A DNA stretch of 41,746 nucleotides from a virus, in the IMG/VR virus record IMGVR_UViG_3300034682_000160, positions 1 to 41,746 of that record. One strand, 5' to 3'. The number at the start of each line of letters is the position of its first letter. Within the stretch, counting starts at the first letter, position 1. The notes beneath the pieces were generated by a model that ran no database searches, was not told where the DNA came from, and saw only the letters and a list, made by a program, of their open reading frames with translations. The position numbers and the translations under genes are program-made. Shown here piece after piece: positions 5,848 through 40,183 of the stretch.

Positions 5848-6227
5848 CCGATCGACTCCTTCACTTCCTTGACGATCTCGGCCAGGTCAGCGTCGCGGCG
5901 CTTGTCGAGGTAGCGAAACAGCGCACGCACGAGGCCCCATGCCGGCAGCCCGCACAAGAACACGACGCCCAGCATCCCCATCATGCCGAACGGGTCTTGC
6001 ACCCAGTCCTGGATGCCGAGGTAGCGCACCAGTGCGCCGCCACCACCGATCGAGCCCATCACGGTGCTGACCAACGCAATGCGCCACTCCTTGTCGGTCT
6101 CCGGCTTGGTCTTGGCCATGACGACGAAGGCTGCGGCGCCGGCACCGATGCCCGCCAGGACGCCCGAAGCGCCGAGGGCCTTCAGCCCCAGGGCGCCTGC
6201 AGCTGCTCCTGAAATTGGTTCACTCAT
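5844..6227 (-). CDS. probable holin
   Basis: A roughly 127-aa membrane protein directly upstream of, and overlapping, the endolysin gene. Hydrophobic stretches lie at SGVLAGIGAGAAAFVVMA, around VMGSIGGGGALV and at MLGVVFLCGLPAWGLV. The C-terminus is charged (DKRRDADLAEIVKEVKE). Size, membrane segments and position fit a holin that opens the inner membrane for the endolysin. I prefer the start MSEPIS. An in-frame ATG at 6242 is possible but sits only six bases after a terminator T-run. Confidence 0.75.
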   Translation of the reverse strand: MSEPISGAAAGALGLKALGASGVLAGIGAGAAAFVVMAKTKPETDKEWRIALVSTVMGSIGGGGALVRYLGIQDWVQDPFGMMGMLGVVFLCGLPAWGLVRALFRYLDKRRDADLAEIVKEVKESIG

Positions 6228-6247
6228 TGTTTGTGCTTTCATAGAAA

Positions 6248-6270
6248 TAAAAAAGCCGCCTTGCGGCGGC
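6248..6270 (-). terminator. rho-independent terminator between tail fibre and lysis genes
   Basis: On the minus strand a 6-bp GCCGCC/GGCGGC stem with a 4-base loop is followed by TTTTTT. It would end or attenuate the structural operon just before the holin gene, so lysis genes may need read-through or a separate start. Confidence 0.75.
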
Positions 6271-6292
6271 CTGGGGCGAGGATTGACAACAG

Positions 6293-6700
6293 TTACTGCG
6301 GGATACCCAGGAGGATCTGTTCGATCCGTTCGGGGGATTCGAGGATGCCGGCGCCTGGCGGAGTCGCGCCTGCCGGCCGCGCCAGGTAGGCGATTGCGTT
6401 TTGCACCGAAGGAAGATTCGGGTCGGTCGGCTTCCCGAGTTGGACGGAGAGCTGGTACATCTCCCAGAACTCCTTGACCAAGGGATCTTCGGAGGCCTTG
6501 ATCTTCATCCGCTCGACCGGCGTGAAGGCCATGTAGAGGGTCATCGGCGTCAGCAGCTCGTACTCAACGACTCCTTCGTATTCCGTGCCATCCGGATCGA
6601 TGAAGCGCTGGTCGCCGCACTCCCAGATACCAGAGACGAAACGAGGCGTTTCACTTACAGCAAATACTTGTTCGGATTTGATATGGCGAATGCTTGGCAT
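6293..6700 (-). CDS. hypothetical protein downstream of tail fibre
   Basis: A 135-aa soluble protein of unrecognised family. The start MPSIRHIKSEQVF follows AAAGGA at eight bases and overlaps the upstream tail gene's stop. It contains an aromatic, acidic first half and a Pro-rich C-terminus. Small genes right after the last tail fibre are often fibre-assembly chaperones or receptor accessory proteins. That is context only. Confidence 0.65.
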   Translation of the reverse strand: MPSIRHIKSEQVFAVSETPRFVSGIWECGDQRFIDPDGTEYEGVVEYELLTPMTLYMAFTPVERMKIKASEDPLVKEFWEMYQLSVQLGKPTDPNLPSVQNAIAYLARPAGATPPGAGILESPERIEQILLGIPQ

Positions 6701-31002: not shown

Positions 31003-33888
31003 TCAACTCCCCACATCGAGCCCTGGCTGTGGCCCTCCACGGTTGCGATAGGACTGGTATGCCTTCTCAAACAGGGCGCTCGACGCCTCGGCCCAATCGC
31101 TCAACGACCGCCCTTCTGGCTGGTCTCCGACCAGGAACACCATGCGCTGCTTGACCTCCTGCCCGAGCGGGTACTTGATCAGGTGCTTCTTCAGCGTCCT
31201 GGCCGCGTAGCGCTCCACCTCTGGACTGAACTTGGTCAGCGAGGTGTACATCGGCTCACCCGAGCGGGCGCACCACACCTTGAAGGCGTCGTACAGCTGG
31301 TTCACCGACACGGTGATGAAGGGCAGCGGCAGGAAGCCTTGCGACCAGGCGCGATAGAAGCGCTCGGACGGCGCCAGGCTCTTCTCGATCAGGTTGTCCT
31401 TCGCTTCGTTGTAGATCGGCTTCGTGTGCTGGTCGAAGTCGCCCATGTCCAGCTCGTGCACCAGGTAGTGGTAGAAGGCCTCGATGCCGCCCTGACGGAT
31501 CTCTTCGGCGACGCTCTGGTAGAACTCCTTGCTCAGCGCCGGCGGCGTCCACACCACCAGGTAGCGGCGGTCGGTCTTGTCCAGGGCCAGCGGCTGCAAC
31601 TCGTTCGACAGGAACACGAAGTTCATCTGGTTCTTCTCGACGTGCTCAGGCAGTCCCTTCGGGTTGACGATGACGGTGTCGCCCGAGATCAGGCCTTTGA
31701 GCTTGCCCTTCATCTGCTTGAGCTCGGCGCGGGTCACCACCTCGTCGGCCACCATGAACAGCTTCATGCTGGCCCAGTCGTTGAACTTGCTCTCCAGCTG
31801 ATCGTTGCCAATCACATAGCCGTAGTCGCCGTAGATCGGCTTGACCACACGCTCGAAGAAGAAGTTCTTACCGGAGCCCTCGTCGCCGTGCATGATGATG
31901 GAGGTTTCCATCTTCGCGCCTGGGTTGCGCAGCGGGTACGCCAGCCAGCGCGCGATCCAGGTCTCCAGCTCCTCGTTGCCGTCGCACAGGTGCGAGAGCA
32001 GCGTCAGGATCTGGATGCACTTGCCGTGCTTCGGCCTCATCGGCCAGCCGTTGAACAGGTTGACGGTTGCGGTCGGGCCGCTCTCGGCCGGCGACGGGGT
32101 GTCGGTCGGATCGAAGACGATGTTCTTCTTGAGCACCCAGCGCCGCTGCGGCCCAGTCCAGAACTTCATCACGTCGCTGCTGCCGACGATGGTGCGCATG
32201 GCCGAGATGCGCATCAGCATGCGATGCCGGCAGTCCCACACCATGTCTTCGCCATAGATGAGGATGAAGTTGTCGAGCACCTCGTCGACCTTGTCCCAAT
32301 GTTCGCGCCCGTACTCCTTCTTCGGCTTCTCCTTCTTCGGCTTCTCGTCGTCCGCCTTCTCTTCCCCCTCCCCCCGCGCAGGAGCGGAGCCGGGCGGGTT
32401 CAGCGGGTACACCTTCGCCAGCGGGCTCACAGGGCCTGCTGGCGCCGCCTCTTCGCCATATCGGGCGTCGAAGTCTTCCAGCGACACCGCGGGCGCCCCC
32501 TCTTCTGGCCGCTCCGCGCCGAGGGGGGCGGGGGGAACAGGCAAAGTCGATCCTTCCCCGCCTGCAGGCGCGGAGGATGAGAGAGCTTCGACCTGGTCGA
32601 TGAGCTCGTCGTCCCCGGCCGCTTGCGCGGGGTGGGCGGAGGGAATCGATGTGCGCTGCTGCGCAGCGAGGGAGAGGTTGGCCGCAGGCTGCGGGTCGAC
32701 CTCGGCCGCTGGCGCGGACGCTGCAGCAGGACAGGATGTGCGCTGCTGCGCAGCGAGGATGGCAAGGCGGACTTGCGCCGTTACGGACGCCAGCCCTTCC
32801 TCGATCTGCACGTCGTTGTAGTCCGAGAGCTTGCGGCCGGCGCGGTCGACCGCGAACACGGGCACGGCCACGGACGCGTTGCCCACCTCGCGCGCTGCGG
32901 CATGACAGCTGGCCACGCCGGCATTCTTGAACGTGGGCGTGCGCACCAGGCGTCCCTTGCGCATGTCCGCTTCGATATACCGGATGCCCTGGGCGTCCTC
33001 GCGCCACCGCGCCATGACCTCGACCTGCTCGCCGTCTTGAGCCAGGACCGTGTGAGTCGCGCTGTCGATCGGCACCGGCGTGACCACCTTGAAATCCTCC
33101 TGCAGGCGCTCGGCGAAGCGCTCGACCAGCAAGTAGTCGTCATCGGCGAAGAACAGCAAATGTGCGTCTGGATACCCTTTGCGCAGCTGGCGTGCCACGT
33201 GGATCAGGTTGCCGGCGTTGACGGCCATCGCGACAGGAAGGTCGTACTCACCAAACACGCTGTCCCGAACGCTCTTGCAGGTCGCATAGCCTTCGCCCAC
33301 ACCGATGATCGGCGCGCCGTCCAGGGAGCCGAGAACGTGGGCGACGCCGATCGCGTCCATTCCCTTGTTCAGGCGCTTCTTGCCGCTGGGGTCGATCTTC
33401 TGCAGGCCGAGCAGCTGGCCACCACGCACCAGGGGAATCAGGAGGTCCTTGCCATCGGCGCTGACCCGCAGGCCCTCGGCCTGCACGTGCTTGCGCTCGA
33501 GGTATGGGTGCTCGACGGGCACGCCCTGGCCCTTGGCCCACTGATCGCGCGCACGGTTAGCCGCCAAGCGGATCTCCTCGTCACGCTTCTCCTGCTCCGC
33601 CTTTTCCGCTGCGCGCTGCTGGCGGACATACTCGGCCTTGTCGTCCTCGGACATCGCGGCCACGTCGACCTTGACCGGCACCGTGTTGCGGTTTTCGCCC
33701 TGGAAGAACCCGAATGCGCCCGTGATGACCTCGCGGCCACTGGCCAGCGTGAGGCGCCGCAGGATGTACCAGCCCTTCTTGTTCGGCCCGAAGCGCTTGT
33801 ACTTGCCGTCGAGGACCGGGTGATTCGCCGGCAGTGGCGGCATACCGTACTCCGCCATCTGCGCTACTACTTGAGCAACGTCGCTCAT
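31003..33888 (-). CDS. TOPRIM primase - SF3 helicase replication protein
   Basis: A 961-aa replication protein. Residues about 150-260 form a TOPRIM domain (Glu199 in GVGEGYAT, acidic DDD at 249-251 in FADDDY). A 150-residue Pro/Ala/Glu-rich linker (about 390-540) follows. The SF3 helicase (D5/DUF5906-like) occupies the last third: Walker A GDEGSGKN (668-675), Walker B LFMVADE (about 710-716), then NQMNFVFLSNE and arginine pair DRRY (about 773-776). It would prime and unwind phage DNA, likely from the AT-rich region next to its 3' end. The linker contains two 24-bp DNA repeats. A second SF3 ATPase is encoded at 39392-40183. Confidence 0.9.
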   Translation of the reverse strand: MSDVAQVVAQMAEYGMPPLPANHPVLDGKYKRFGPNKKGWYILRRLTLASGREVITGAFGFFQGENRNTVPVKVDVAAMSEDDKAEYVRQQRAAEKAEQEKRDEEIRLAANRARDQWAKGQGVPVEHPYLERKHVQAEGLRVSADGKDLLIPLVRGGQLLGLQKIDPSGKKRLNKGMDAIGVAHVLGSLDGAPIIGVGEGYATCKSVRDSVFGEYDLPVAMAVNAGNLIHVARQLRKGYPDAHLLFFADDDYLLVERFAERLQEDFKVVTPVPIDSATHTVLAQDGEQVEVMARWREDAQGIRYIEADMRKGRLVRTPTFKNAGVASCHAAAREVGNASVAVPVFAVDRAGRKLSDYNDVQIEEGLASVTAQVRLAILAAQQRTSCPAAASAPAAEVDPQPAANLSLAAQQRTSIPSAHPAQAAGDDELIDQVEALSSSAPAGGEGSTLPVPPAPLGAERPEEGAPAVSLEDFDARYGEEAAPAGPVSPLAKVYPLNPPGSAPARGEGEEKADDEKPKKEKPKKEYGREHWDKVDEVLDNFILIYGEDMVWDCRHRMLMRISAMRTIVGSSDVMKFWTGPQRRWVLKKNIVFDPTDTPSPAESGPTATVNLFNGWPMRPKHGKCIQILTLLSHLCDGNEELETWIARWLAYPLRNPGAKMETSIIMHGDEGSGKNFFFERVVKPIYGDYGYVIGNDQLESKFNDWASMKLFMVADEVVTRAELKQMKGKLKGLISGDTVIVNPKGLPEHVEKNQMNFVFLSNELQPLALDKTDRRYLVVWTPPALSKEFYQSVAEEIRQGGIEAFYHYLVHELDMGDFDQHTKPIYNEAKDNLIEKSLAPSERFYRAWSQGFLPLPFITVSVNQLYDAFKVWCARSGEPMYTSLTKFSPEVERYAARTLKKHLIKYPLGQEVKQRMVFLVGDQPEGRSLSDWAEASSALFEKAYQSYRNRGGPQPGLDVGS
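32648..32758. repeat. 24-bp direct repeats with palindromic core in the primase linker
   Basis: The same 24 bases occur at 32648-32671 and 32735-32758 with core GCGCTGCTGCGCAGC. They encode matching LAAQQRTS stretches in the low-complexity linker. They look like small mobile or amplified palindromic elements tolerated in a disordered region. Confidence 0.8.
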
Positions 33889-34316
33889 CCGTTGTTGTCC
33901 TCGTGATGCATGGTGATGCTGCTGCGGAACGCGACCGGCTTGCCGGCGTACAGCGATGGGATGTCCCGGTAGTCGAACGCACCAGGGCGCAGCACGACAG
34001 GGCGATGCCTCACCGAGAGTGGCCGCGCCGGCGCGACGTAAGAGCCTGCCGGGGCCGCGAGGGCCGCGGCGTCGACGGTCGGGTTCAGGAATTTCTTGCC
34101 TGCCGTGGTGAGCGAGATTTGCTCGTCCTGCAGGCGGACGAACTGGCGGCGATCCAGCGGCCCCAGGACCAGGCGCCGGAATTGACCAGGCGTGTCGGTC
34201 CAGATCAGCTGCAGCATCAGGTTTGCGACGGTCGCGGCGCCACCCATCTTTTCCAGGTGGACGAGAGCCAGGTGCGCGCCACTACCCTTAATGGGGCCTT
34301 TGACCGCGGCAGTCAT
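33885..34316 (-). CDS. hypothetical protein of the replication operon
   Basis: A 143-aa protein lying between the CII-like gene and the primase-helicase gene, overlapping both by four bases. Residues about 12-75 (HLALVHLEKMGGAATVANLMLQLIW through DEQISLTTAGKKFLN) look like a winged helix with a terminal strand pair. The rest is Pro/Arg-rich. I do not know the family. A DNA-binding helper of replication is a reasonable guess. Confidence 0.7.
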   Translation of the reverse strand: MTAAVKGPIKGSGAHLALVHLEKMGGAATVANLMLQLIWTDTPGQFRRLVLGPLDRRQFVRLQDEQISLTTAGKKFLNPTVDAAALAAPAGSYVAPARPLSVRHRPVVLRPGAFDYRDIPSLYAGKPVAFRSSITMHHEDNNG

Positions 34317-34774
34317 TGCGCCTCCGGCCGCGCCTGCGGCGTGTAGATGCGGAACATCAGGGCCAGCAGCTCAGCCAGCACCTTGTGCATGCGCTGTGCG
34401 TCGCTCTCGAGCATCGCCTTCTCCCGCGCGTCGATCTGCTCGTCCGCTGTCGCTTCCGTGAAATGGCGCGAGAACGTGCCCAGCTCGGCGTACAGGTCGT
34501 TGAACTTCTTCATGAGAATCTCGTTCTCGCACGACAGGTCGTCGGGCAGTTTGACGAACACACCGCCGGATGCCGCCGCGATCGCCTCGGCGTAAAGCCG
34601 GGCGCCGGAGAGCTCCTGCAGAGCCAGGCAGTGGTCTTCGCTCAACACCTGGCCTTTGACTTCATAGGCGCGGTTGCGCAGGGCATTGACCGTCAGCCCG
34701 AGATAGGCTGCAGCGACCTCCCAGGTGCCGGGGACCTTGTTGATCATCTTCAGTTTTGCATCGCGCAATTCCAT
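34313..34774 (-). CDS. CII-like / YmfL regulatory protein
   Basis: A 153-aa protein of the YmfL-type phage regulator family. The N-terminal helix-turn-helix is WEVAAAYLGLTVNALRNRAYEVKGQ, followed by ALQELSGARLYAEAIAAASGGVFVKLP, a family hallmark, and a long helical C-terminus suited to oligomerisation. The start MELRDAK follows GAGGG. An operator at 34808-34823 lies just upstream, so it is probably under repressor/Cro control. Confidence 0.82.
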   Translation of the reverse strand: MELRDAKLKMINKVPGTWEVAAAYLGLTVNALRNRAYEVKGQVLSEDHCLALQELSGARLYAEAIAAASGGVFVKLPDDLSCENEILMKKFNDLYAELGTFSRHFTEATADEQIDAREKAMLESDAQRMHKVLAELLALMFRIYTPQARPEAQ

Positions 34775-34865: not shown

Positions 34866-35186
34866 ATGAAGCTCACCGACGCAGTCGCCAATCGGCATCT
34901 GGTGCAATGGTTCGATAACGGGTTCGTTCGGACACTTGAGCCTCACGCGCTTGCCTTGGCGGCCGGTGGGCGGAATATCCTGATCGCGTACCAGGTGGCG
35001 GGCGGTCCAGCGTTCGAGGACCACCAGTGCTGGAAGGTGATCGATGCCGGCGAAGCGCTGCAGGTCGACGAAGTCGAACATTTCGCAGAGCCGCGGACGA
35101 TCCCGGAACACCTTCAAGCCCTGGTACGTGCAACCTATGCATGCTCGCTGCCGGGTGCCGGCGGCTTTGCAGTCCCGCGCAGGTAG
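34866..35186 (+). CDS. hypothetical protein encoded against the early operon
   Basis: A 106-aa protein on the plus strand filling the gap between the cro-like and CII-like genes. The core resembles small stand-alone WYL-like beta domains: VRTLEPHALALAAGGRNILIAYQVAGG followed by HQCWKVIDAGEAL. AAAGG lies five bases before the ATG. Its end overlaps the end of the cro-like gene by 52 bases, so transcription of the two is mutually antisense. It may be a ligand-sensing or regulatory factor expressed in the lysogen. Confidence 0.7.
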   Translation: MKLTDAVANRHLVQWFDNGFVRTLEPHALALAAGGRNILIAYQVAGGPAFEDHQCWKVIDAGEALQVDEVEHFAEPRTIPEHLQALVRATYACSLPGAGGFAVPRR

Positions 35187-35389
35187 GCCCAGTCGATGTC
35201 TGGTCGCAAGTGCTCGCATGCGACGAGGCCGTGGGATTCCCGGTCGATGTTGATGCACAGGTCAGCGCCGAGACGTTGCGAAATGCTGATCGCCTTGCGC
35301 AGGTAGCGCTCGGTCGTTCCGCAAGCAGCGCAGAATTTCGCGCGCTCTGGTTTCCCCAGTCCGTTCAGGTATGCAAGTAATTTTTCCAT
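35135..35389 (-). CDS. Cro/YdaS-type transcriptional regulator
   Basis: An 84-aa DNA-binding protein. The N-terminal MEKLLAYLNGLGKPERAKFCAACGTTERYLRKAIS is a YdaS/Cro-type helix-turn-helix. The C-terminal part has HLRPDIDWAYLRG, which is typical of this family. It is first in the leftward arm, directly behind the promoter TTGACG-N18-TAATAT (35398-35427). This is the position of a Cro-like early repressor. The ribosome site is weak. Confidence 0.82.
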   Translation of the reverse strand: MEKLLAYLNGLGKPERAKFCAACGTTERYLRKAISISQRLGADLCINIDRESHGLVACEHLRPDIDWAYLRGTAKPPAPGSEHA

Positions 35390-35397
35390 AGGCAAGC

Positions 35398-35441
35398 ATA
35401 TTACTAAACGGTAATGAGAAACGTCAACACCATTTGGTAAT
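35398..35441 (-). promoter_or_regulatory. leftward early promoter with operators (copy 1 of inverted 44-bp element)
   Basis: On the minus strand TTGACG and TAATAT are 18 bases apart, a good promoter for the cro-like gene. The operator TTACTAAACGGTAA (35401-35414) covers the -10. A weaker operator (35427-35440) overlaps the -35. The whole 44-bp block recurs inverted at 36274-36317 with one mismatch. Confidence 0.8.
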
Positions 35442-35476: not shown

Positions 35477-35926
35477 ATGGAAATCCAAGACATTCGCCGC
35501 GCCAGGCTCGCCGAGCTGATACAGCGCTATGGATCTCAGGCCAAGTTCATCGATGAGACTGGCGAGAACCAAAGCGAGATTTCACGGCTGCTGAGGGACA
35601 AGTCGTTTGGGGAGCGCAAAGCCCGCAAACTTGAAGTGAAATGCAATTTACCTAGCGGCTGGTTCGACCGCCCACCAGGTAGCAACGGCCTCAGCGTCGT
35701 CGCCAGCGAGGGAGCAGGCGAAAGCCAGGAAACTACGCGTCCTGGCCTCACTGTGGTCGAGCGGGTGGAACCGCAATGGATGGCCCTGGTGTACGTCACA
35801 GAGCGCGAATTAAACCTACTTTCCGCCTACAGGCGGGCGTCTGACATTGGCAAGAGCCTTGTCGAGACTGCGGCCGAGTCGGCCGCTGGAGAAGAATCAG
35901 GAGCGGGAACCGCTCACCACTCGTAA
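35477..35926 (+). CDS. phage repressor (CI-like, no peptidase domain)
   Basis: A 149-aa regulator. The N-terminal helix-turn-helix is RARLAELIQRYGSQAKFIDETGENQSEISRLLRDKSFGERKARKLE, as in CI-like repressors. The rest (about 70-149) is short, with VTERELNLLSAYRRASDIGKSLVETAAES as a likely oligomerisation helix. No LexA/CI-type serine-lysine self-cleavage domain fits in this length, so RecA-driven self-cleavage is unlikely. It sits between two inverted operator blocks and is followed by a terminator at 36221. Confidence 0.85.
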   Translation: MEIQDIRRARLAELIQRYGSQAKFIDETGENQSEISRLLRDKSFGERKARKLEVKCNLPSGWFDRPPGSNGLSVVASEGAGESQETTRPGLTVVERVEPQWMALVYVTERELNLLSAYRRASDIGKSLVETAAESAAGEESGAGTAHHS

Positions 35927-36049
35927 GACCGGCTGCGCACGCGCCGGGTGCTTGGCTGCCATAGCCAAAGCCAATTTCAACATTTCTGCACGTGCCTCAG
36001 GGCTCATCGCCCTGAGCGCTTCCTTCATTTCTTTGAAATACTGTTCCAC
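35897..36049 (-). CDS. 50-aa protein behind a LexA box, candidate antirepressor
   Basis: A short frame opposite the region behind the repressor, overlapping its last 30 bases. The GTG start has GAGG seven bases upstream. The protein is helical and coherent: EQYFKEMKEALRAMSPEARA then EMLKLALAMAAKHPARAQPV. A LexA-type box lies 76-91 bases upstream on the same strand. Small SOS-induced antirepressors are known in phages whose repressors cannot self-cleave. No homologue is recognised, so this rests on position and sequence only. Confidence 0.5.
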   Translation of the reverse strand: MEQYFKEMKEALRAMSPEARAEMLKLALAMAAKHPARAQPVLRVVSGSRS

Positions 36050-36124
36050 CTATCCACCTCGTCGCCCTCGCCTGCCTGTTGGCCAGCGACAACACATCTT
36101 GTATAGGAATCTTACACCGAACTA

Positions 36125-36140
36125 CTGTACAAATATACAG
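36125..36140. promoter_or_regulatory. LexA-type SOS box
   Basis: CTGTACAAATATACAG fits CTGT-N8-ACAG, and the flanks (TA before, GTA after) also follow the known SOS consensus. On the plus strand CTTACA and TATACA at 17-base spacing make a promoter overlapping it. On the minus strand TTGTAC and TATACA at 21 bases lead into the small ORF at 36049. Either start would be closed by LexA. Confidence 0.75.
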
Positions 36141-36220: not shown

Positions 36221-36245
36221 AGCCGGCCTTCGCCGGCTTTTTTTT
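36221..36245 (+). terminator. terminator behind the repressor gene
   Basis: A 7-bp stem AGCCGGC/GCCGGCT with a 4-base loop is followed by eight T on the plus strand. It ends the repressor transcript and protects the rightward operon from it. Confidence 0.88.
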
Positions 36246-36273: not shown

Positions 36274-36317
36274 ATTACCAAATGGTGTTGACGTTTATCA
36301 TTACCGTTTAGTAATAT
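36274..36317 (+). promoter_or_regulatory. rightward early promoter with operators (copy 2 of inverted 44-bp element)
   Basis: Inverted copy of 35398-35441 with 43 of 44 bases identical. TTGACG (36288-36293) and TAATAT (36312-36317) are 18 bases apart, and the operator TTACTAAACGGTAA (minus strand) covers the -10. It should drive the plus-strand operon from 36350 and be closed by the same repressor and Cro. Confidence 0.82.
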
Positions 36318-36836: not shown

Positions 36837-39131
36837 ATGAACAACACCGCTCTGACCCTCCTTCCAGCACCCGAAATGCCGGCAATCACCGACGCGCCGA
36901 TCGTCGTCGACGAGCTGGTAACGAATGCCGGAGAGTTCGGCTATTTCGACCTGGTTGACATCCGTATCTCGAAGACCAACAGGAAACGCTTCGACCTGGT
37001 CAAGCTAAATGAGCTGGCTGCAAGCATCAAGACCAAAGGCGTAGCTCAGCCCATCCTGCTCCGCCCGGTCGAGCCGACAGCGGACGAGCCGCAGAAGTAC
37101 GAAATCGTCGCCGGCGAGCGCCGCTTCCGCGCTGCGATCATTGCAGGGTGCCTCAACATCCCTGGAATGCTTCGCATCCTGACCGATGCCGAGGCCCTTG
37201 AACTGCAGATCCTCGAGAACCTGCAGCGCGACGATCCGCATCCCTTGGAGGAAGCGGAAGGATACGAGCGTCTTATGCTCGAGCGGAACTACGACGTCGA
37301 CCAGCTGGCCGAGAAGCTCAGCAAGAGCCGGTCCTATGTCTACGGCCGTCTCAAACTGTGTGCGCTGACCACCAAGGTGCGCGAGCAGTTCCTCGAGGAC
37401 AAATTCAGCGCTGCGACCGCGCTCCTGATCGCCCGCATTCCTAACCCAGACCTGCAGGTGAAGGCCGCGAAGGAAGTCAGCGCGCTGGACTGGCAAGGCA
37501 GTCCCATGTCATATCGCCAGCAAAAAAGCCTGCTGCGCGATCGCTTCATGCTCGATCTGAAGAACGCGGTTTTCCCGATCAAGGATGCAGCCCTCTTGGC
37601 CGACGTCGGCTCGTGCGTCGAATGCCCCAAGCGCAGCGGCAACCAGCAAGATGCATACGAGGGCGAGAAACACGACAACCTCTGCACCGATCCGGACTGC
37701 TTCGCTGAAAAGACGGCCGCGCACTCCAAGAAGGCAAAGCAGAAGGCCGAGGAGCGTGGCCAGACGGTGATCAGCGGCGAAGAGGCCAAGAAGATCATGC
37801 CGAACAGCTACGGCAACCTCAAGGGCGGATATGCCGACGTCGACAAGACAATGTATCTGTCCAGCGGCTCCACAACTTACCGCAAGCTGCTCGGCAAACA
37901 AACACCGAAGGGCGTCCTCCTGGAGAGCCCATTCGAGCCGGGCAAGCTGATCACCATTGCCAAGATCGACGAGCTCGAGGACCTCGTAACGCAAGTAGCC
38001 GGCACCGGCAAGACCGAGGCGTCGATCTCGGCAAAGCAGCGCGCCAAGGAAAAGCAACAGGAACAGGCCGCGGCTGTTGAGCGACAGTTCCGCCGAGACT
38101 TGTTCGTCGCGGTTCGCGACGCCAGCAGGGTGGAACGCCCTCCTATTAACGAGCACGAGGTGGCAGCTCTGCTGTTCCAGAACTGCCCGAACACCGAGGA
38201 CGCCTTCATCCGCAAGCTCTATGGCTGGACCGGCAGCGAATTCGAGTCGGGCTATGAAGGTGGAACCTACGTGACCGGCACGAGCAAGATCTGCACTCAC
38301 ATACGGCAGATGGAGCTCGACGACGTCCGCCAGGTGATCCGTGACATGACGTTGGTGCGTGAGCTGACCGTCAGCACCTACATCTACGACGAAGCCGATG
38401 TTCCCTGGCTCATGCTCGCCGCGGCTGCGGATCTCGGCATCGATGCTGAAACCATGAAGAAGTCATTGGTTAAAGCGGCCAAAAAGCAGGCGGAAGAAAA
38501 GGCCGCAAAGAAGGCGAAGGCCGCGGCCAAAGGGAAAAAGCCAGCACCCGCACAGGCGGTCCTGCCAGAAGTAGCACGGTGCAAGGAGAACTCGACGGCG
38601 CCTGCTCGGGTGACGGAGGCCTCGCCGATCGATGTCGCCAACCTGCAGCCGAGCGACCTGTTTGTCTTCATGCGCGACAACCCGGAAAAAGTCACCGACT
38701 TGGCCAAGGCCATCATCGCCCGCGGCACGGACGAGCTCGCCGAAGCCTTCGGCAAGGCTGCAGCCCATATTGGATACGTGCTCACGGACGCCGGCTACGT
38801 CCTGCCGAAGGAGATGCCTCAGGCCGGGTCGCCTGAGCTCGCTGCAGCGGACCAGGCCGCTGCTGGCCAGCTGCAGGAAGCGACACCTGCCGCGGCCGAC
38901 CAGGCCGACGTCGTCCAGCTGCAGGACGAGGTCGAGCCGGTGATCGTCAAGACCCCTTCGCCGGCCGTCCGCTACCGCAATCCCCAAGACCCTGGTCAAG
39001 CGTGGACCGGCCGTGGCCGCCAGCCGAAATGGGTCAGCGATTGGATCGGCGCCGGTAAATCACTTGAGACCTTGCAGGTCAATGCGGCCAGCGCAGCGCC
39101 CGTTGAGCTCAACAGTATGGCAACGCAATGA
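36837..39131 (+). CDS. large ParB-like protein
   Basis: A 764-aa protein. Residues about 37-135 are a ParB N-terminal CTP-binding domain (GERRFR 93-98, ENLQRD 127-132), followed by a helix-turn-helix (YDVDQLAEKLSKSRSYVYGRLKLC). Four cysteines (260, 263, 283, 288; CVEC...CTDPDC) may bind zinc. The C-terminal half is Lys/Ala-rich coiled regions and Gln/Ala repeats. Plasmid ParB is about 300 aa, so this is a much longer phage form. It may organise or segregate phage DNA, or act in transcription. GGA lies before the ATG. It is the main gene of the rightward operon and is followed by overlapping small genes. Confidence 0.85.
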   Translation: MNNTALTLLPAPEMPAITDAPIVVDELVTNAGEFGYFDLVDIRISKTNRKRFDLVKLNELAASIKTKGVAQPILLRPVEPTADEPQKYEIVAGERRFRAAIIAGCLNIPGMLRILTDAEALELQILENLQRDDPHPLEEAEGYERLMLERNYDVDQLAEKLSKSRSYVYGRLKLCALTTKVREQFLEDKFSAATALLIARIPNPDLQVKAAKEVSALDWQGSPMSYRQQKSLLRDRFMLDLKNAVFPIKDAALLADVGSCVECPKRSGNQQDAYEGEKHDNLCTDPDCFAEKTAAHSKKAKQKAEERGQTVISGEEAKKIMPNSYGNLKGGYADVDKTMYLSSGSTTYRKLLGKQTPKGVLLESPFEPGKLITIAKIDELEDLVTQVAGTGKTEASISAKQRAKEKQQEQAAAVERQFRRDLFVAVRDASRVERPPINEHEVAALLFQNCPNTEDAFIRKLYGWTGSEFESGYEGGTYVTGTSKICTHIRQMELDDVRQVIRDMTLVRELTVSTYIYDEADVPWLMLAAAADLGIDAETMKKSLVKAAKKQAEEKAAKKAKAAAKGKKPAPAQAVLPEVARCKENSTAPARVTEASPIDVANLQPSDLFVFMRDNPEKVTDLAKAIIARGTDELAEAFGKAAAHIGYVLTDAGYVLPKEMPQAGSPELAAADQAAAGQLQEATPAAADQADVVQLQDEVEPVIVKTPSPAVRYRNPQDPGQAWTGRGRQPKWVSDWIGAGKSLETLQVNAASAAPVELNSMATQ

Positions 39132-39391: not shown

Positions 39392-40183
39392 ATGAAACCG
39401 AACAGCAAGCACATCAACACCGCCGCCGTCAAACTGAGCGAGGCATTCTCGCGGCACCTCGCAGCACCCTTGGCAGCCCTGACCAGCAGCTTGGCTCGAA
39501 TCAAGCTCCTATTGATTGGCGCGTCGGCGCCGGTCGCGAGCGAGCGTCCAGCGCATTGCCACAACATCCTGACCCTGCTCGCGCACCTGTGCGATATGGA
39601 CGACGAGTTGCAGCTCTGGACCCTGCGCTGGCTGGCATACCCGCTTCGCAATCCAGGTGCCAAGATGTCCACGGCCTTGGTTCTCAACGGAGGCGAAGGC
39701 TCCGGCAAATCACTGTTCATTAACTTCGTGGTCGCCAGCCTCTACGGAGACGCGGCGGCAAAGCTTCGGCCTCGGGACCTGCACGGTGCATTTAACGGCT
39801 GGATCGATGGTGCCAGCTTGGCGGTCGTTGACGGCGAGTTCGCCCGATCGCATATCGCACGGATGAAGGCGGCAATAACGACCGACTCTTTCATCGTCGA
39901 GCGTAAGGGCCAGGCAATGAAGATTGTTCGGAACCAGATCAACTTTATCTACGTCACCAACAGCCCGGACTTCCTGCCAGCGGACATCGGTAACCGCAGG
40001 TTCGTGGTCATCGAAGTGCCGCCCGCTCGGCAGCGCGCCTTCTATCAAGCGGTCTTGCACGAGATCGCAGAAGGTGGCGTCGACGCTTTCCGCGACTACT
40101 TGCTACACGGCCTTGAGATGGGCTTATTCAATGAGAGCACGCTGCCGCCGGCATGCGTACGCGCGGAGAGGAGCGCAGCGTGA
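39392..40183 (+). CDS. stand-alone SF3 helicase-like ATPase
   Basis: A 263-aa protein equal to the helicase core of the large primase-helicase at 31003. Shared signatures are ILTLLAHLCD ... RWLAYPLRNPGAKM, Walker A GGEGSGKS (100-107), Walker B LAVVDGEF (143-150), NQINFIYVTNS and the arginine pair NRRF (201-204). It lacks the TOPRIM domain, the linker and the C-terminal 120 residues. All motif residues are intact, so it is probably active. It may load or replace the other helicase, or act in mixed rings. Confidence 0.85.
   Translation: MKPNSKHINTAAVKLSEAFSRHLAAPLAALTSSLARIKLLLIGASAPVASERPAHCHNILTLLAHLCDMDDELQLWTLRWLAYPLRNPGAKMSTALVLNGGEGSGKSLFINFVVASLYGDAAAKLRPRDLHGAFNGWIDGASLAVVDGEFARSHIARMKAAITTDSFIVERKGQAMKIVRNQINFIYVTNSPDFLPADIGNRRFVVIEVPPARQRAFYQAVLHEIAEGGVDAFRDYLLHGLEMGLFNESTLPPACVRAERSAA

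Follow-up and report, generated by a model that had tools for sequence, protein, structure and literature searches.

How does a prophage sense DNA damage when its repressor is of a kind that cannot cleave itself? The question is raised by the immunity region of IMG/VR virus record IMGVR_UViG_3300034682_000160, a 41.7-kilobase virus record that was analysed over its full 41,746 nucleotides (nt) and is hereafter called the window. The window is a temperate phage of Massilia-like soil bacteria, with genes for portal, head and contractile tail on the minus strand. The locus in question holds a lysogeny repressor of 149 amino acids (aa) on the plus strand (35477..35926), a minus-strand open reading frame (ORF) of 50 aa (35897..36049) and a LexA (SOS) box, CTGTACAAATATACAG, at 36125..36140. 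Our analysis makes it quite probable that this locus couples prophage induction to DNA damage through a switch in which the small protein would inactivate the repressor by forming mixed oligomers with it. The ORF product is probably an SOS-driven antirepressor of a non-self-cleaving repressor. A LexA-controlled small antirepressor had been suggested in an initial annotation, and comparison with related loci supports that suggestion. The computation shows the box, the conserved coding frame, the use of the same motif at host lexA, recA and dnaE2 genes, the co-inheritance of the small protein with one repressor tail and the profile similarity between the two.

The repressor matches PHROG transcriptional repressor families (expectation value, E, 2e-8) and is composed of a helix-turn-helix (HTH) DNA-binding domain (about aa 1-65), a low-confidence linker and a C-terminal helical hairpin. 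Its DNA-binding domain is related to that of the phage SPC32H Rep protein (5d50), which was found by profile comparison (E 7e-6) and was also the best Foldseek match. AlphaFold2 (AF2) predicts a disordered linker and, with modest confidence, hairpin helices at residues 109-120 and 123-141. Family searches with this repressor found no S24 or other peptidase domain, which bears out the earlier expectation that the protein lacks one. The proposed target of the antirepressor is the C-terminal tail (about aa 103-141, encoded at 35783..35899 on the plus strand), with a strand-like ALVYV segment and the helical hairpin.

Relatives were collected by searches with the repressor, which led to IMG/VR and to Massilia and Duganella loci. 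Fourteen loci form the SOS set used below (the window, L001-L010, L016, L033 and L034), with repressors 54-73% identical to that of the window. The small ORF starts with GTG in 13 of them and with TTG in one. A ribosome-binding-like AGGTGG (36054..36059, minus strand) lies 4 nt before the GTG of the window, and the last 30 nt of the ORF overlap the repressor 3' end tail-to-tail, so that the ORF, ribosome site and overlap noted at the outset are all there. Over codons 2-41 of the 14 loci (40 codons, outside the overlap) the synonymous divergence (dS) is about 1.23 and the nonsynonymous divergence (dN) about 0.12, a dN/dS of about 0.10; other frames give no such selection signal, save the antisense frame that mirrors third positions. 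By this measure the ORF is coding and under strong purifying selection. The selection is frame-specific, and therefore the ORF would act mainly as a protein and not as an antisense RNA. The initial annotation had named both modes; the protein stands, and an antisense effect or transcription interference is conceivable solely as a by-product of the 30-nt overlap.

For the 50-aa protein, AF2 predicts a hairpin of two helices (residues 2-14 and 17-33; mean predicted local distance difference test score, pLDDT, 78), followed by a C-terminal LRLV-like segment. The LRLV segment is the most conserved part of a wide family of small proteins. The hairpin is soluble and amphipathic, and a TisB-like membrane toxin was set aside, as the protein has no hydrophobic segment. 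No match to the small protein was obtained in Pfam, PHROGs or NCBIfam, among PDB chains by profile searches, or in the PDB by Foldseek with the predicted model. The ORF had no tblastn match in 50,697 GenBank phage records or in PLSDB plasmids, a DNA-level search of phages found nothing, and Rfam gave no match. An order-wide genome search returned only partial matches outside Massilia, several of them in unrelated proteins or in the C-termini of HTH regulators.

The LexA box was correctly located by the initial annotation and is the sole exact CTGT-N8-ACAG of the window. By itself the box is weak evidence and is not significant in this window: shuffled windows hold a mean of 0.42 exact boxes, and 32/100 have at least one. 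An exact box within 240 nt upstream of the ORF start was found in 5 of 3000 shuffles. The box is more than chance because it is kept at one place across the relatives: in 14/14 loci the same minus-strand ORF begins 60-77 nt away from it, the chance of such a box is 0.03-0.6% per locus, and its CTGT and ACAG bases, together with the TA that follows them, are invariant. A -10-like TAAGAT (36109..36114, minus strand) lies 10 nt downstream of the box, and a TAnnAT hexamer is present 10-12 nt below it in all 14 loci. Therefore, a -35 element at the standard distance would be contained in the box. As the box is downstream of the repressor, a scheme like that of CTX phage, in which LexA controls the repressor itself, was set aside.

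The same motif is used at SOS genes of the hosts. In Massilia genome G001, the host of L016, one box is located 28 nt upstream of lexA and a second 79 nt upstream of a dnaE2-like gene (identified by eye). Duganella genome G002 has two boxes before lexA and a further one before recA. The Massilia and Duganella genomes contain additional copies of the pattern, and a reversed control pattern occurs in them as well (22 and 9 times, compared with 34 and 39 for the pattern itself); single boxes elsewhere in host genomes are therefore not proof. Taken with the conserved position and sequence, the host SOS genes support the box as a working LexA site.

What would the small protein act on? The small protein and the repressor tail are both predicted as helix-turn-helix hairpins, and strict profiles of the two families align over 31 columns covering both helices, with E 2.3e-4 in one direction and 3.5e-5 in the other. 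The profile score of 22.4 was reached in 0/200 column shuffles, the highest of which scored 12.9, and the reversed profile scored 7.4, whereas the small family against the HTH head gives E 0.46. When close relatives of the window are left out, the signal persists (E 5.7e-5). The strict sets were hand-picked from paired loci because one iterated search had mixed members of the two families at its edges. Early comparisons were weak because their sets were too narrow (the small protein against the whole repressor gave a weak result, and against the tail E 0.047); the clear result comes from the wide strict sets only. Thus, the small protein resembles a free-standing version of the C-terminal hairpin of its repressor.

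The two parts are also inherited together. Five loci (L014, L037, L038, L040 and L042) carry the same DNA-binding domain with another tail, an S24 peptidase; they lack the box, and the small-ORF profile finds nothing there. No box-like site was found within 1.5 kb of any repressor of about 230 aa in the search. Conversely, in Oxalobacteraceae genomes the same tail occurs on unrelated HTH heads (L115, L116, L119, L158, L161, L166, L170, L171, L126, L127 and L129). In those loci the tail overlaps at its 3' end, usually by 24-48 nt, with a convergent ORF from this small-protein family. Of 55 distinct tails, which span several HTH types and were not de-replicated by lineage, 33 have a convergent small-ORF partner. 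L170, L171 and L129 share tail and small protein but differ in their heads, and L044, with the same head as the window, has a different hairpin tail and its own convergent small ORF. Outside the SOS clade, distances between tails and between small proteins, given the DNA-binding domain, show a partial matrix correlation of 0.51 (reached in 4/2000 permutations), compared with 0.07 for head and small protein given the tail. Since, wherever domains have been swapped, the small ORF goes with the tail rather than with the DNA-binding domain, these data point to the C-terminal helical hairpin of the repressor as the target of the ORF product.

Two further features of the tail and small-protein families were observed. 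Tandem pairs of HTH repressors that share this C-terminal tail are found in L158, L159, L160, L161, L162 and L166, and where a partner was found, only the last repressor of the pair has the convergent small ORF. In L122, L129 and L123, two small LRLV-family proteins stand in tandem or nearby.

The input to the small ORF differs between clades. No exact LexA box was found near the small ORF outside the 14 SOS loci. Genes for Arc-like ribbon-helix-helix proteins are divergent from the small ORF, without a LexA box, at L011 5731, L012 5716, L013 5682 and L044 5653 (+), and L035/L114 has such a divergent gene too (L114 1078-1344, minus strand). The Arc-like gene is possibly an SOS-independent input to the small ORF, and differing inputs between clades fit a module whose input is exchangeable. 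We judge the chances to be about even that the repressor 3' end, which encodes the C-terminal hairpin, and the convergent, overlapping hairpin-mimic gene form a portable cassette that has moved between HTH repressors of Oxalobacteraceae, both prophage-borne and chromosomal, with the DNA-binding domain and the input promoter (a LexA box in one clade, an Arc-like regulator in another) swapped independently; the inactivation mechanism would then be a plug-in module. Two other non-SOS loci, L115 and L116, have palindromic sequences of the CCCAT...ATGGG type shortly upstream of the small ORF, possible sites of another regulator. In L044, a LexA-like box, TACTGTATATACGTACAGTG, is present at 5971-5986, some 590 nt beyond a repressor from this DNA-binding family, and stands before a small ORF (6046-6390) with a signal-peptide-like start.

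Several points weigh against the proposed switch. The presumed -35 element of the ORF promoter matches TTGACA poorly, and the LexA wiring is limited to one clade. Among the 55 tails, 22 have no recognised partner, some of these being the upstream member of tandem repressors. The distance matrices share phylogeny, which the permutation test removes only partly. Finally, the similarity between the hairpins covers a short stretch of about 31 columns, and convergence could account for it.

This shortness also favours an antirepressor that is not a subunit mimic. Such a protein would bind the DNA-binding domain or the linker and block operator binding, like Mor with CI of TP901-1. Many antirepressors work in this way, and the highly conserved LRLV C-terminus has no counterpart after the repressor hairpin. 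The small ORF, however, tracks the repressor tail across domain swaps and not the DNA-binding domain, and we therefore regard a non-mimic antirepressor as possible but rather doubtful. It is improbable that the ORF encodes an SOS-induced accessory protein, such as a toxin or a modulator of the host or of other prophages, whose place beside the repressor is merely a conserved neighbourhood. Some family members (L117, L120-L122, L128) have no recognised partner tail within the stretch that was fetched, which would fit this, as would FsoA of Fels-1, an antirepressor able to act on another prophage (PMC3121763); against it stand the soluble amphipathic hairpin without a hydrophobic segment and the constant tail-to-tail placement with one repressor tail over different DNA-binding domains. 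Very improbable, too, is action by RNA, in which the LexA promoter would lower repressor levels after damage through antisense transcription across the repressor 3' end or through polymerase collision. The 30-nt convergent overlap is compatible with this, and no strong terminator is seen at the ORF end, so that transcripts may enter the repressor gene. Nevertheless, the selection acts on the protein frame, the protein family persists at loci without a LexA box, and repressor already present would remain even without new synthesis. Antisense RNA as the main agent was rejected on the frame-specific selection and the absence of an Rfam match. That the box is no working LexA site is hardly credible: chance alone puts such a box into about a third of shuffled windows, but its position and sequence are kept in 14/14 loci and the same motif is found at host SOS genes.

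How might a LexA-driven hairpin mimic open the lytic promoters? The immunity region is framed by two near-identical, inverted operator/promoter copies of 44 nt, at 35398..35441 (minus strand) and 36274..36317 (plus strand), the left copy being 98% complementary to the right one. Between them lie only the repressor, the 50-aa ORF, the LexA box and a rightward intrinsic terminator-like hairpin followed by T8 (36221..36238, plus strand), which is directed away from the repressor; a similar hairpin between the box and the rightward promoter is present in 7/14 loci, the window counted. The left copy is promoter-like (TTGACG-18-TAATAT, with TTAC...GTAA half-sites) and would drive the cro-like and cII-like genes, whereas the right copy, which recurs in 14/14 loci, would drive a rightward ParB-like operon. 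In the lysogen, the 149-aa repressor would hold both operator/promoters and host LexA would hold the antirepressor promoter. Upon DNA damage, LexA would be cleaved and the 50-aa protein made, which would then bind the C-terminal helical hairpin of the repressor. We propose subunit replacement because small protein and tail are hairpins of one kind: most likely the small protein would take the place of one repressor subunit and give a mixed complex unable to bind DNA, in the fashion of SinI and SinR, so that both lytic promoters would open. LexA binding at this site, complex formation, loss of operator binding and induction are the steps we infer. The repressor mRNA would probably run antisense across the ORF and the box up to the hairpin at 36221-36238, and it is tempting to guess that this damps leaky expression in the lysogen.

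The leftward operon is led by a Cro/YdaS-like regulator of 84 aa (35135..35389, minus strand; YdaS_toxin PF15943, E 2e-7; PHROG 35 transcriptional repressor, E 6e-10), and a CII-like activator (Phage_CP76) is encoded at 34313..34774 on the minus strand (PF06892, E 8e-14; PHROG 101, E 3e-27). The ParB-like protein (36837-39131, plus strand; 764 aa; PF02195, PF17762, PF00816) ends in an H-NS C-terminal DNA-binding domain. The window also has two primase/helicase-type genes, at 39392-40183 (plus strand, 263 aa) and 31003-33888 (minus strand, 961 aa); the match of the shorter protein to the primase families of the longer one is confined to their C-terminal half.

The logic of LexA-controlled antirepressors is already known from Gifsy, N15 and 186, and in this respect the switch is not of the new type that the initial annotation had considered possible. 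In the Gifsy prophages of Salmonella (GfoA/GfhA/GftA), as here, a non-cleavable repressor of about 150 aa or less meets a small, LexA-controlled protein with a non-ATG start; action as a protein and not as RNA was shown, and the repressor leaves the DNA (PMC3121763). However, the GfoA/GftA gene lies outside the immunity region in a dinI operon, whereas the present gene has the repressor on one side and the right operator on the other, is convergent with the repressor and overlaps it. No match in Pfam, PHROGs, NCBIfam or the 50,697 phage records links the small protein to the Gifsy family, in searches that included no direct comparison with the Gifsy sequences. As cited in PMC3121763 and PMC10432266, Tum of coliphage 186 and AntC of N15 are LexA-controlled antirepressors that induce prophages with a non-cleaved repressor; Tum differs in its 146 aa with a DinI-like half and is unrelated to the small protein by the family searches made. 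In TF-smORF modules of polylysogens, a small ORF inactivates a repressor independently of SOS (PMC10432266). The loci with a divergent Arc-like gene (L011, L012, L013, L035/L114, L044) resemble these modules, whereas the small ORF of the window has a LexA box and no Arc-like regulator beside it.

A close parallel for the proposed mechanism is SinI/SinR of Bacillus subtilis. SinI is a small two-helix protein like the C-terminal two-helix hook of its repressor; it replaces a SinR subunit, which dissolves the tetramer, and the mixed dimer abolishes DNA binding (PMC3163267). Here too, the small protein resembles the two-helix hook at the C-terminus of a repressor with a phage-type HTH domain. SinI/SinR differs as a chromosomal biofilm switch under Spo0A, and the complex proposed here is predicted from likeness. 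The SinI profile (PF08671) gave no match at E up to 10 to five small proteins and five repressors, in a search whose HMMER filters may drop weak matches. SPC32H Rep (PDB 5d50), from a Salmonella phage, has the related DNA-binding domain and was solved with its antirepressor Ant, which acts on the C-terminal domain of the repressor (PMC9986798, PMC9638917). This repressor differs in its length of about 199 aa and its other C-terminal domains, and no Ant chain was among the PDB profile matches of the small protein.

New here are the protein family, its place inside the immunity region, the tail-to-tail overlap, the likeness to the repressor tail and the putative module exchange; no report of such an arrangement was found in the open-access literature. 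The small ORF and its family match none of the named families searched, and with 50 aa, a GTG start and an overlapping position they are easily missed in annotation. If the proposed switch holds, further pairs could be found by looking for HTH repressors with such a tail and an overlapping convergent ORF, and the target surface, the repressor tail, would be named without a structure. It would explain how one group of phages with non-cleavable repressors senses DNA damage, and prophages would have gained an SOS-controlled subunit mimic of the SinI type. A lysogeny switch would then be seen to evolve as separate modules for its sensing input, its inactivation device and its DNA-binding head.
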